From contig CACGBZ010000002.1 in assembly GCA_902571425.1 (NCBI GenBank), positions 141,380 through 205,379 on the forward strand: a stretch of DNA of 64,000 nucleotides, read 5' to 3'. Origin of the DNA: an uncultured Pelagibacteraceae bacterium. GTDB lineage: Bacteria > Pseudomonadota > Alphaproteobacteria > Pelagibacterales > Pelagibacteraceae. Shown in pieces: positions 7,428-26,030 of this stretch. How positions within the stretch are numbered: position 1 is the first letter of the stretch; every line of letters starts with the position of its first letter. The notes under the pieces were generated by a model, which saw nothing but the letters and a program-made list of their open reading frames with translations, was not told the DNA's origin and ran no database searches. Made by a program: the position numbers and the translations under genes.

Positions 7428-8216
7428 ATGTTTTTATCAGAGAAAAAAATCAAAGATTATCAAAACGATGGTGTAATAATAATTAAATATGTATTTAAAG
7501 ATTGGATTGAGCCACTTAGAAAAGGATTTCAAAAAGTTTTAGATAATCCAAGTAAGCATGGTAGAGAAAATGTAACTGATGATAATGGAAGATTTTTTGA
7601 GGATTATTGTAATTGGGAGAGGATAGAAGAATTTAAGGATTGTTTATATAACTCACTTGGAGCTCAAATATTTGCGGAAGCAACTAATTCTAAATCTACC
7701 CAAATTTTTCATGAACATATTTTCATGAAGGATCCAGGTACTCATAAAGAAACACCATGGCATCAAGATATGCCTTATTATTGTGTTAATGGTAACGATA
7801 CCGGAAGTTTTTGGATTCCATTAGATGAAGTTGATCAGAAAAATAATCTTAAATTAATTTTAGGTTCTCACAAATGGTCAAAGTTAATTAGACCTACAAA
7901 GTGGTCCAATAATCAATCTTGGTATGATGATGATAGTGCTTTTATGGATTTACCTCCTTCAAAAGAATTTGAAGAAAATATTTTAATTCCAGAATTAACT
8001 TTGGGTGATGCTGTTTTATTTAATTTTAAAGTTGTACATGGTTCAACAGGAAATAATTCTTCTAAATCACGAAGAGCGTTTTCGATGCGATTTATAGGTG
8101 ATGATATTAAGTATATTGATAGAGGAGGGCCAACTTCACCCCCATTTGATGGGATTAATTTAAAAACTGGAGATTTGATGAGAGATGATTGGTTTCCTAA
8201 AGTTTTTAGTAACTAG
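7428..8216 (+). CDS. phytanoyl-CoA dioxygenase (PhyH) family protein
   Basis: TPWHQDMPYYCVNG, SFWIPLDEVDQKNN, GDAVLFNFKVVHGSTGN metal and 2OG ligand motifs. Confidence 0.85.
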   Translation: MFLSEKKIKDYQNDGVIIIKYVFKDWIEPLRKGFQKVLDNPSKHGRENVTDDNGRFFEDYCNWERIEEFKDCLYNSLGAQIFAEATNSKSTQIFHEHIFMKDPGTHKETPWHQDMPYYCVNGNDTGSFWIPLDEVDQKNNLKLILGSHKWSKLIRPTKWSNNQSWYDDDSAFMDLPPSKEFEENILIPELTLGDAVLFNFKVVHGSTGNNSSKSRRAFSMRFIGDDIKYIDRGGPTSPPFDGINLKTGDLMRDDWFPKVFSN

Positions 8217-8595
8217 TATATTCTTTAATTTCTTTAATACTTGATCCAGTGTGATTATTCATTTCTAATTTAATTTTCGCTCGGTCATCATTTAAAAAAT
8301 GAACATCTCTGGATAATTTTATAAATTTATCACCAAAGTCTTTATTTTTTTCACAATCTCTTTTGTCATCCTCTATAACCCATAACTTGGCATTAATTTC
8401 TTTTAAATCTTGAAATAGTTTATTTAGTTTATCGTCTGATTTAACATTTTTTTCGAACTGATCTTTAAGAATCGAATGTTCATTTGATATAAATTTTAGT
8501 TTTTCAGGATCTTTAATTTTTTCTTTTTTAATTTCTAATATTGAAATTTTGTCTAAAAGCTCGCCAACTGATACTTCTACTATAATTTTATTCAT
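8206..8595 (-). CDS. DUF6165-like protein
   Basis: VSVGELLDKISILEIKKEKI; conserved small protein beside a GT9 gene. Confidence 0.6.
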   Translation of the reverse strand: MNKIIVEVSVGELLDKISILEIKKEKIKDPEKLKFISNEHSILKDQFEKNVKSDDKLNKLFQDLKEINAKLWVIEDDKRDCEKNKDFGDKFIKLSRDVHFLNDDRAKIKLEMNNHTGSSIKEIKEYTSY

Positions 8596-22534: not shown

Positions 22535-22936
22535 ATGACCTTTAAAATTAACAAAAAGTTTTATAATTCTTCATACCATATTACAGACTTAAAATTATGT
22601 TCGCTAAGACTTCATGATAACTTTAGATTCCCATGGGTTATTTTAATTCCTAAAAGAAAAAATATTAAAGACATAAGTGAGCTTAGTTCTAAAGATCAAA
22701 TTTTGCTAATTAAAGAGATAGTTAAAGTTAGTAAATTTATGAAGAAGTTATTTAAAACAAATAAACTTAATGTTGAAAAAATTGGAAATATAGTTCCTCA
22801 GCTACATATACATATTATTGCAAGAAGAAAAAAAGATAAAACTTGGCCTCTTTCAGTTTGGGTTGTTAAAAGCAAAAAATACTCAAAAAAGGATTTAAGT
22901 AATATTTTAGAAAAGTTTAAGAAAGTTCTTAAATAA
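22535..22936 (+). CDS. HIT domain protein
   Basis: VPQLHIHIIARRKKDKTWP histidine triad. Confidence 0.88.
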   Translation: MTFKINKKFYNSSYHITDLKLCSLRLHDNFRFPWVILIPKRKNIKDISELSSKDQILLIKEIVKVSKFMKKLFKTNKLNVEKIGNIVPQLHIHIIARRKKDKTWPLSVWVVKSKKYSKKDLSNILEKFKKVLK

Positions 22937-23096
22937 AAAGAGGTGACTTCAGTCTCCCTCCATCACCTCACGTATCCAAATTAAGTGATTCTTTAAATAT
23001 TTATGAACACTTATTAGTTGAAAATGCACTTTATCAACCGATTTAACCTAAACAATCTTAAGTTGCATCTAGTTTTAAATTAAAACTCAATTTAGC
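22937..23096 (-). ncRNA. candidate structured small RNA (about 160 nt) ending in an intrinsic terminator
   Basis: minus strand: TATAAT at 23102-23107; hairpins AGTTTTA..TAAAACT, GTTGA..TCAAC, AAGTGTTC..GAATCACTT and GAGGTGA..TCACCTC followed by TTTTTATT (22932-22939); no ORF. Confidence 0.5.
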
Positions 23097-23141
23097 CATA
23101 CATTATATTTAAGCTTTTAATTCTAATTGATACTTTAAACT

Positions 23142-24245
23142 ATGGTCTCAATAAAAGATATTAATAAAAATATTAAAAAAAATTTATTTGATCCATTAGA
23201 TAAAACCAAAAATAAATTCTCCTCATTAGTAAACAATATAAAAAAAAACAAAGCTAAAAAAGATCAGGTACTACAAAAAAAATTAGAAAAAGAAAAAAAA
23301 AGAGAAGCAATTTTAGAAAAAAAATTAGCAAAAAAAGCTAAACAAGATGAACTAAAAGAAGAAAGAAAGAAACTTCTTTTTCAAAAAAAATTAATAATTG
23401 AAAATGAAAAGCAAGAAAAGAAGAATGAAGAAAAAAGACAAAAAATAGAAGCTCAAAGAATCAAAATAGAACAGAAAAAAATTAAAGACGAGGAAACAAG
23501 AAAGCTTAGAGAGGAAGCTAGAAAGCTTAAACAAGAAGATCTAAGGCTTAAAATGTTAGAAAGACAAAGAATTAGAGAAGAAAATTTTAAAATTAAAGAA
23601 GAAGAATTAAAAAATAAAGAAATTGAAGCTCAAAAGAGAAGAGATGAAAAAGAAAAAGAAAGACAAGAAAAAATAAGATTAAAAGAAATTGAAAGGAAAA
23701 ATAGACTTGAGGAAGAACAAAGATTAAGAGAGGCAGCTAGGAAGCTGAAATATGAGCAAGAAAAACTTAAAGAACTGGAAGAAAGATTAAGAGATCTAGA
23801 AACTGAAAGACAGCAAGAAATTCAAAGACAAATTTTAAAAGAAGAGGCTGAGCAAAGAGCTAAGGAGGAGGAATTAAAAAATAAAGAAAAAGAACTTAAA
23901 GAAGCTGAACGAGATAGAATAAATAAAGAAAATGAAAGGCGTCAAAGAGAAAGAGAATTGAAAATTGAGGAGGAAAGACAAAAAAGAATTGAAGAAGAGA
24001 ACGAAAGGATCAGATTAGCCGAAGAAGCTCAAAAAGAGAGAATTGAAGAGGAAAATAGGCGAATGAAAGAATGGGAGAAAAAATTTGATGAAGAACAACG
24101 ATTAAAAGAGGAGGAATTAGTTAGAAAGTTTTATAACGATGAAGCTCCTGAACAAGAAAACAATCAGGATGGCGATAATTTAGAAAATAAACCTGATGAG
24201 GATAATATGGGAACTAAAGCTGATGATGATAATTATAAAAATTAA
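23142..24245 (+). CDS. highly charged long coiled-coil protein of unknown function
   Basis: long continuous K/E/R-rich helix, acidic C-terminal tail. Confidence 0.7.
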   Translation: MVSIKDINKNIKKNLFDPLDKTKNKFSSLVNNIKKNKAKKDQVLQKKLEKEKKREAILEKKLAKKAKQDELKEERKKLLFQKKLIIENEKQEKKNEEKRQKIEAQRIKIEQKKIKDEETRKLREEARKLKQEDLRLKMLERQRIREENFKIKEEELKNKEIEAQKRRDEKEKERQEKIRLKEIERKNRLEEEQRLREAARKLKYEQEKLKELEERLRDLETERQQEIQRQILKEEAEQRAKEEELKNKEKELKEAERDRINKENERRQRERELKIEEERQKRIEEENERIRLAEEAQKERIEEENRRMKEWEKKFDEEQRLKEEELVRKFYNDEAPEQENNQDGDNLENKPDEDNMGTKADDDNYKN

Positions 24246-24262: not shown

Positions 24263-24544
24263 TCAAAGATTTTTTTCACAATATAATGAAGCAAATTTTG
24301 TAGCCTCCATAATATCTTTAGGTTTTTGCTTAAATATTTCCTTAATTTCATCATCTGTAAATTTTTCATTAAGTTTTTTTAATGTACACAAGCAATAGGA
24401 TTTTGCTTTTTCAGGACCTATATATTGTTTTGAACTTCCGTAACAGCCAATATAAATTTGTTGTTCAATTTCAGGGCTAAAACTTTGACTTTTTGAGCTT
24501 AAAAATAAAAAAAAAAATAATAAAATATTAAATTTTTTGATCAT
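24263..24544 (-). CDS. small secreted protein, unknown function
   Basis: start re-assigned to ATG at 24544 (MIKKFNILLFFFLFLSSKSQSFS signal peptide); conserved-looking Cys pattern IGCYG..YCLC..YCEK. Confidence 0.6.
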   Translation of the reverse strand: MIKKFNILLFFFLFLSSKSQSFSPEIEQQIYIGCYGSSKQYIGPEKAKSYCLCTLKKLNEKFTDDEIKEIFKQKPKDIMEATKFASLYCEKNL

Positions 24545-26030
24545 ACTCACCGATTTTTCCAGTTTCCTGAAGCAATCTATCAATAAAATCGAATATTTTT
24601 TTCTTTCGTTCATCTGATGTTGGGCTTTCAGTTACTATTACTAAGGATGGCTTGTTTGATGATGCTCTTATCAGTCCCCAAGAACCATCTTCAAATGAAA
24701 ACCTAACTCCATTAACAGTTAAAATATCATTAATGACTTGGCCATCTATTTCAGTTTTGTTGTCTTGCAAATTTTTAATTTGTTTAACGAGTTCTTCAAC
24801 AACAATATATTTTTCTTCATCTTTGCAAAAAGGAGCCATTGTTGGTGTTTGAAATGTGCTAGGTAATTCACTAATAATTTCACTCATTTTTTTATTTTGA
24901 GCATCTAATAAGTGACATACTTGAATTGCTGAATTGATACCATCATCATAACCAAAACCCAATGGCTGGTTGAAGAAAAAATGGCCACTTTTTTCAAATC
25001 CAGCTAAAGCTTTTTCAGTGTTTACTTTCCTCTTGATGTGAGAATGGCCTGTTTTCCAATAAATTGTTTCACAATTGTTTTCTAATAAGATTTTATCTTT
25101 TGAATATAAACCTGTTGATTTTACATCTACTACAAACTTTGAATTTTTATGTTTGTTTGATAAATTTCTAGCTATCAAGAGACCTATCTTATCTGAAAAT
25201 ATTTCATTACCATTATCGTCAATAACACCGACCCTGTCTCCATCACCATCAAATCCGAACCCTATATCAGCATTGTTTTCTTTTACTACTTTTGCTATTT
25301 CATGAAGCATTTCTAGATCTTCTGGATTTGGATTGTATTTAGGAAAATCCCAGTCTAGGTTACAATCTAACTCTATTACCTCACATCCAATACCTCTTAG
25401 AATATCTGGGGCAAAAATACCCGCCGTTCCATTACCACAAGCAACCACAGCTTTAATTTTTTTTTTAATTTTATTCTTTTTAGTTAAGTCATCCTTATAA
25501 ATTTTATCAAAATCTTTTATTTGTTTTTCGTTACCTTCACCTTTAATAAATTTTTCATTTAAGGTGATTTCTTTCAATTCTTTCATTTCCTCAGGTGCGT
25601 GAGTTAATCCTTTTCTGATTCCCATTTTGACACCAGTCCAACCATTTTCATTATGACTTGCCGTAACCATAGCAACTGCATCGGCATCTAAATTAAATTG
25701 TGCAAAGTAAACCATTGGAGATAATGACAAACCAATATCCTCAATATTGCATCCTGTAGACAATAATCCTTTTTTAAGAGCTGTTTTTATTTCCTCACTA
25801 TATGAACGATAATCATGACCTACTATGATTCTTGGATTTTCTTTTTTAGTATGAGTTTTTATTTGTGTTCCTAGTCCTTTACCAAGATTCTCTATTCCAG
25901 CTGAATTTATGTCTTTTTCATACAACCAACGAGCGTCATATTCTCTAAAACCATAGGGATCTATTTTTATATTTTGATTCATTAAGTATTTAATTAGCCT
26001 TTTTATGTTAATTTCTTTAAAAAAATTCAA
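24528..26030 (-). CDS. phosphomannomutase/phosphoglucomutase
   Basis: TASHNENGWTGVKMG, FGFDGDGDRVGVID, FEKSGHFFF. Confidence 0.93.
   Translation of the reverse strand: MNFFKEINIKRLIKYLMNQNIKIDPYGFREYDARWLYEKDINSAGIENLGKGLGTQIKTHTKKENPRIIVGHDYRSYSEEIKTALKKGLLSTGCNIEDIGLSLSPMVYFAQFNLDADAVAMVTASHNENGWTGVKMGIRKGLTHAPEEMKELKEITLNEKFIKGEGNEKQIKDFDKIYKDDLTKKNKIKKKIKAVVACGNGTAGIFAPDILRGIGCEVIELDCNLDWDFPKYNPNPEDLEMLHEIAKVVKENNADIGFGFDGDGDRVGVIDDNGNEIFSDKIGLLIARNLSNKHKNSKFVVDVKSTGLYSKDKILLENNCETIYWKTGHSHIKRKVNTEKALAGFEKSGHFFFNQPLGFGYDDGINSAIQVCHLLDAQNKKMSEIISELPSTFQTPTMAPFCKDEEKYIVVEELVKQIKNLQDNKTEIDGQVINDILTVNGVRFSFEDGSWGLIRASSNKPSLVIVTESPTSDERKKKIFDFIDRLLQETGKIGEYDQKI

Follow-up and report, generated by a model that had tools for sequence, protein, structure and literature searches.

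Does the gap between a HIT gene and a coiled-coil gene in this Pelagibacteraceae genome encode a structured RNA, and if so, which part of that RNA has been kept by evolution? The gap lies in a stretch of 64,000 nucleotides, which is referred to here as the window. A preliminary description had proposed a minus-strand transcript of about 160 nt, placed behind a TATAAT at 23102-23107, containing four successive hairpins and ending in a U-tract found on that strand only. The letters agree with the description: the gap from the end of the HIT gene (22936) to the start of the coiled-coil gene (23142) measures 205 bp, the TATAAT and all four inverted repeats are present, and the U-tract is confined to the minus strand. 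Folding of the single sequence, on the other hand, yields only a modest signal relative to shuffles (z = -2.1, with 3 of 200 shuffles equally good).

A hairpin with a constant loop and a covarying stem

The genes around the gap, and the hairpin that comparison with relatives singles out within it, are as follows.

22535-22936, plus strand: HIT gene, flanking the gap
23142-24245, plus strand: coiled-coil gene, flanking the gap, without Pfam match
24528-26030, minus strand: phosphoglucomutase/phosphomannomutase gene (Pfam PF02878-PF00408; synteny)
22940-22969, minus strand: constant-loop hairpin, GAGGTGAT-GGAGGGAGACTGAA-GTCACCTC (covariance model R1, covariation)
22948-22961, minus strand: constant 14-nt loop, GGAGGGAGACTGAA (family consensus NRAGGGAGACURRR)
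22931-22939, minus strand: U-tract after the hairpin, TTTTTATTT, overlapping the 3' end of the HIT gene

The 3' hairpin has a constant loop of 14 nt (NRAGGGAGACUGAA), closed by an 8-bp stem that is free to covary, and our covariance model of the hairpin (R1) scores the window copy at 51.1 bits (22938-22971). We found that 96.8% of cells are paired among 39 diverse copies, compared with 69.0 +/- 1.7% in shuffles, and that 84 cells are altered on both sides of the stem, against 19.6 +/- 4.7 in shuffles and no more than 20 in slid structures used as a control. The host loop is near-invariant, with few variable positions among 47 unique host hairpins. At the six inner stem positions of 98 unique hairpins, G·U occurs 33 times and A·C once; the functional molecule is therefore the RNA of the minus (hairpin) strand. 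Thus the proposal of a structured minus-strand RNA stands, on the strong covariation of this one hairpin. Covariation across the homologous gaps, which had been suggested as a check, lends nothing to two of the remaining three: the GTTGA/TCAAC hairpin is paired in only 47% of cells, and the AAGTG/CACTT hairpin in 76% as against 74% in shuffles, which is no gain. The AGTTTTA hairpin falls outside the conserved region of about 95 nt, and in the nearest relative (L002) its pairing is disrupted.

The hairpin is GC-rich, and together with its U-tract it has the layout of an intrinsic terminator in the window and in many relatives, but not in others: the U-tract is absent or interrupted in many of them (for example L009, L012, L015 and L019), and many phage copies likewise lack it. 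Two further candidates were considered for this region and rejected. A short peptide (MEGD, then stop) read from ATGGAGGGAGACTGA loses its ATG in relatives, and the GGAGG required for mimicry of a Shine-Dalgarno sequence is not preserved in the loops TAAGGGAG and CAAGGGAG.

The host unit, its locus and its distribution

Beyond the closest relative, BLAST in 60 relatives matched nothing of the gap but its 3' ~100 nt, and three parts of the resulting unit of about 95 nt are kept: the hairpin and two conserved, unpaired boxes upstream of it.

22932-23023, minus strand: proposed RNA of about 92 nt (from how far conservation reaches in relatives; predicted 5' end)
23006-23022, minus strand: box 1, TTCAACTAATAAGTGTT (consensus TWCAAYTAnnAMGWGTT)
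22982-22992, minus strand: box 2, AGAATCACTTA (consensus MGAATCRnnTA; information profile)
23055-23050 and 23035-23030, minus strand: putative promoter-like pair, -35-like TTGTTT and -10-like GATAAA, with a 14-nt spacer

The distance between the boxes is nearly fixed and that between box 2 and the hairpin varies (about 10-15 nt); comparison of relatives revealed no pairing of the boxes. Box 2 is present at 77 of the 78 Pelagibacterales hairpin loci among the GTDB matches listed, the remaining locus being cut by a contig end. As the conserved unit begins near 23022, the TATAAT at 23102, previously read as the promoter, and the first ~80 nt of the supposed ~160-nt transcript are not evolutionarily kept. 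A promoter nearer to the unit is a guess from weak similarity, given a spacer of only 14 nt; a comparable TTGTTA-N14-TAATAAA is found in relatives whose RNA and phosphomannomutase gene are separated by other genes. Alternatively, boxes 1 and 2 could act at the level of DNA, as a promoter-like element; the transcript would then shrink to about 40 nt.

Two genera carry the unit. In the first, it lies downstream of the phosphoglucomutase/phosphomannomutase gene on the same strand, often 60-95 nt past the stop, and is convergent with HIT or TauE/SafE genes. Upstream of the RNA, the phosphomannomutase gene is the neighbour that is conserved, and two genes intervene in the window; there and in some relatives the intervening position is taken by a coiled-coil gene, a small gene or both. 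The presence of the coiled-coil gene (23142-24245) beside the RNA varies between relatives. In the second genus the unit often follows the end of a tRNA-Ser, and TTATCCACA precedes box 1. We note that this DnaA-box-like word (TTATCCACA/TATCCACA) is strongly conserved just upstream of box 1 in that genus (L213-L236). In genomes that lack the RNA, 13 phosphomannomutase loci were examined; none of them holds any part of the unit, and most pass directly into the next gene. Such clean empty sites indicate that the unit behaves as one gene, either present or absent.

We ran R1 on Pelagibacterales genomes, accepting matches at E <= 0.01, and recovered the hairpin in 224 of 397 (about 56%); this and our other presence counts are lower bounds, because many genomes are incomplete and the collections limited. 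Copy number per matching genome is nearly always one, with two copies in G243 and G146. All matching genomes belong to the two genera, which are members of a single family, and 11 other genera yielded none. A class-wide sample of 385 genomes gave three Pelagibacter-like matches and one at 30.8 bits; the latter, a weak one, is the sole match among the roughly 380 other Alphaproteobacteria sampled, none of which has a convincing copy. A pattern scan of GTDB contigs returned at least 120 matches, and 78 of the 80 listed are Pelagibacterales sequences with the stem. Two non-SAR11 matches, one in a MAG of Bacteroidia and one in a MAG of Patescibacteria, do not form the stem and were taken as chance.

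Single copies in pelagiphages

The constancy of the loop and its occurrence in phages are features that the preliminary description had missed. Scanning IMG/VR with the pattern GGNNNNNRAGGGAGACTGAANNNNCC produced at least 120 matches, and the inner stem is formed in 115 of the 120 listed, where about six would be expected. The stem-swapped control (CC..GG) matched a single contig; an alternative stem pattern (GC..GC) gave 42 matches, all but one with a stem. The constancy of the viral loop owes something to the search pattern, but most host copies and isolated phages were recovered by BLAST or the covariance model instead, and their loops differ in few places. Isolated phages show the loop variants AGACTAAA and AGACTGGA, and one inserted G.

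Of 19 pelagiphage records, which are isolates or complete genomes, 15 have exactly one match, among them HTVC019P, HTVC022P (at 8213-8246), HTVC031P and HTVC027P (at 1829-1862); HTVC010P, HTVC200P, HTVC119P and Eistla gave no match. Exactly one was also found in each of 17 IMG/VR viral contigs, which were selected for holding a match. Phages of several types are represented, and a Blast comparison of two phage groups with named phages gave no match. The hairpin occupies the lysozyme/primase, capsid/tail tubular protein A or SSB/primase gap, and in HTVC027P, an unrelated phage, it directly precedes primase. In most phages the copy lies within an operon, 10-50 nt past a stop codon; the genes that end ahead of phage copies encode SSB, capsid, Hsp20 or lysozyme. 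One viral group (L059, L103, L141 and others) has a free-standing form, alone in gaps of 700-900 bp on the strand opposite to the genes, with TTGATY-N17-TACAAT ahead of it and a run of U behind.

The capsid/tail gap always contains some hairpin, with other loops when the constant-loop hairpin sits elsewhere. A second constant-loop hairpin is found in the pelagiphage capsid/tail tubular protein A gap, with a loop of about G(A/C)TTAACAC(A/T)GACAA on changing stems (L175:21083, L177:15408, L178:18717, L371, L372, L376 and L143:1287); its carriers have the AGGGAGACTGAA hairpin elsewhere or not at all. Terminator-like hairpins after pelagiphage lysozyme genes have the loop TAGAAATA in common (L174:6670-6742, L175:8866-8917). 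HTVC200P, which is without the hairpin, has a noncoding, seemingly structured gap of ~240 nt between thymidylate synthase and primase (L178:9172-9416).

Host and phage sequences have 34-36 bp in common, which led us to consider whether the hairpin is part of an attP/attB pair. This was rejected: only the hairpin is shared with the host, the phage stems differ and the phage copy lies away from the integrase. In HTVC019P (L175:8866-9055) the hairpin adjoins a tRNA-like stretch resembling an attP core, and integration at tRNA-Cys is described for its relative HTVC022P (PMC12753301). That pelagiphage transcriptome study, which has RNA-seq of HTCC1062 infected by HTVC022P and by HTVC027P, makes no mention of noncoding or small RNA in its main text (PMC12753301).

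Known RNAs and possible functions

As the preliminary description had supposed, the RNA corresponds to no known Rfam family. A search of the window region against Rfam 15 gave nothing above the gathering threshold, and none of 12 phage loci matched a family above threshold. The best match in the window region, AniS (RF02274), resembles the SAR11 RNA in having a hairpin and a U-tract, but at 20.8 bits (E 1.4) it is far under the cut-off of 50. The remark that no clear 6S RNA was recognised is likewise sustained, as the RF00013 model found no match in the source genome and did match the controls. Searching the open literature for the loop sequence returned unrelated papers only.

RNAs of the CsrB/RsmY type also carry GGA-containing loops on stems of free sequence and bind protein, as we propose for the constant-loop hairpin. 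Unlike them, the SAR11 RNA has one hairpin instead of many, and its loop of 12-14 nt is fixed. CsrA is the best-known reader of GGA loops; it is absent (PF02599) in 21 genomes examined and present in control genomes. Terminator-hairpin small RNAs (Hfq-type or derived from 3'UTRs) are similarly small, located in intergenic regions or 3'UTRs, and U-tracted as in many of our copies; in the SAR11 RNA, however, the invariant part is the loop of the terminator-like hairpin itself, it is shared with phages, and no recurrent antisense target was found in the host genomes searched. The PeSL promoter/stem-loop cassettes of T4-like phages also place stem-loops in intergenic gaps, but in the SAR11 RNA it is the loop that stays fixed and the stem that varies, and a copy resides in the host chromosome too. 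Candidate RNAs reported from Cand. Pelagibacter ubique include SAR11-specific intergenic motifs, one of them U-tracted in about half of cases (PMC2704228). As described there, the motifs of Meyer et al. (2009) adjoin rhtB, pntA, rnhB and SAR11_0635/0636 instead of a phosphomannomutase gene, and the description includes no phage copies (PMC2704228). Overlap with our RNA is unlikely on this comparison of genomic contexts. Small RNAs as such are a known kind; a constant-loop hairpin of which a host and its unrelated phages each keep a single copy is, to our knowledge, new.

The explanation that we favour, tentatively, is that the hairpin belongs to a Pelagibacteraceae small RNA acting in trans, an RNA that phages mimic or exploit and in which a SAR11 factor recognises the loop. 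Host and virus each have a single copy, both have a free-standing form, and the phages concerned are unrelated; together this points to a trans product that acts on a shared host factor. The stem would serve as a scaffold only, for which any pairing sequence suffices, and the 14-nt loop would be the recognised part. Its reader would most likely be a SAR11 protein or ribonucleoprotein, rather than one conserved mRNA recognised by base pairing. Unrelated pelagiphages would deliver the same loop, either as a free small RNA or within untranslated gaps and 3' ends of their transcripts, and during infection the phage loop may capture or block the host factor, or mimic its control. Transcription of the unit, action in trans, a protein partner and a benefit to the phage are inferences. 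Only about 56% of the sampled Pelagibacterales carry the RNA, so that the factor must manage without it elsewhere, which counts against this reading. Two further observations speak against it: phage hairpins within operons, shortly past stop codons, fit a cis-acting signal too, and four pelagiphage records are without a match.

A cis-acting transcript signal is the chief alternative, though we consider it rather unlikely. The hairpin would then be a special terminator, or a site of processing or 3'-end protection, with a loop recognised by an RNase or an RNA polymerase factor of SAR11; in phages it would stand behind strongly expressed genes, and in the host it would simply form the end of the RNA. 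The positions of the phage copies after SSB, capsid, Hsp20 and lysozyme stops agree with this, as do the U-tracts on many host and some phage copies and the capsid/tail gap, which is never without some hairpin, other loops included. However, a general signal should recur, yet each host and phage has a single copy; many copies lack the U-tract, and the host unit has additional conserved boxes and is gained or lost whole.

It is also improbable that the loop acts as an antisense, pairing with a host mRNA or another RNA. Antisense small RNAs usually present a long, exposed and invariant loop, rich in purines, on a terminator-like hairpin, but the 12-nt complement TTCAGTCTCCCT, allowing one mismatch, recurs at no gene in eight genomes beyond the locus itself, and matches to the 8-mer AGTCTCCC are not common to genomes, except for one pair within a coding region. 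As a separate observation, AGTCTCCC, which is complementary to part of the loop, occurs less often than the reversed word in the host genomes G000, G012, G063, G067, G070 and G078 (34 against 78; raw counts that include self sites and are uncorrected for composition).

A hairpin of DNA, folding on single strands as a replication, priming or recombination site, is already disfavoured and in our estimation very unlikely. It would account for the single copy per genome, the frequent position beside phage primase or SSB genes and the DnaA-box-like TTATCCACA ahead of box 1 in the second genus, but not for the excess of G·U over A·C in the stem, the free-standing form with promoter and U-tract, or the many copies distant from replication genes. 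That the hairpin is an ordinary intrinsic terminator, frequent through GC-richness, is least probable of all and barely credible: the source-genome copy makes a good terminator, yet across copies the stem changes while the loop is invariant, and the U-tract is often missing.

Returning to action in trans, we suggest with some reserve that this may be a SAR11-specific system, in which an accessory host RNA and one-copy phage mimics both act on the same SAR11 factor. Near-identity of the loop, letter for letter, between a host and unrelated viruses that each keep one copy points to a factor that matters in infection. The 34-nt hairpin RNA offers a concrete bait for the factor that reads the loop, and existing transcriptomes of pelagiphage infection could be re-read with this RNA in mind.
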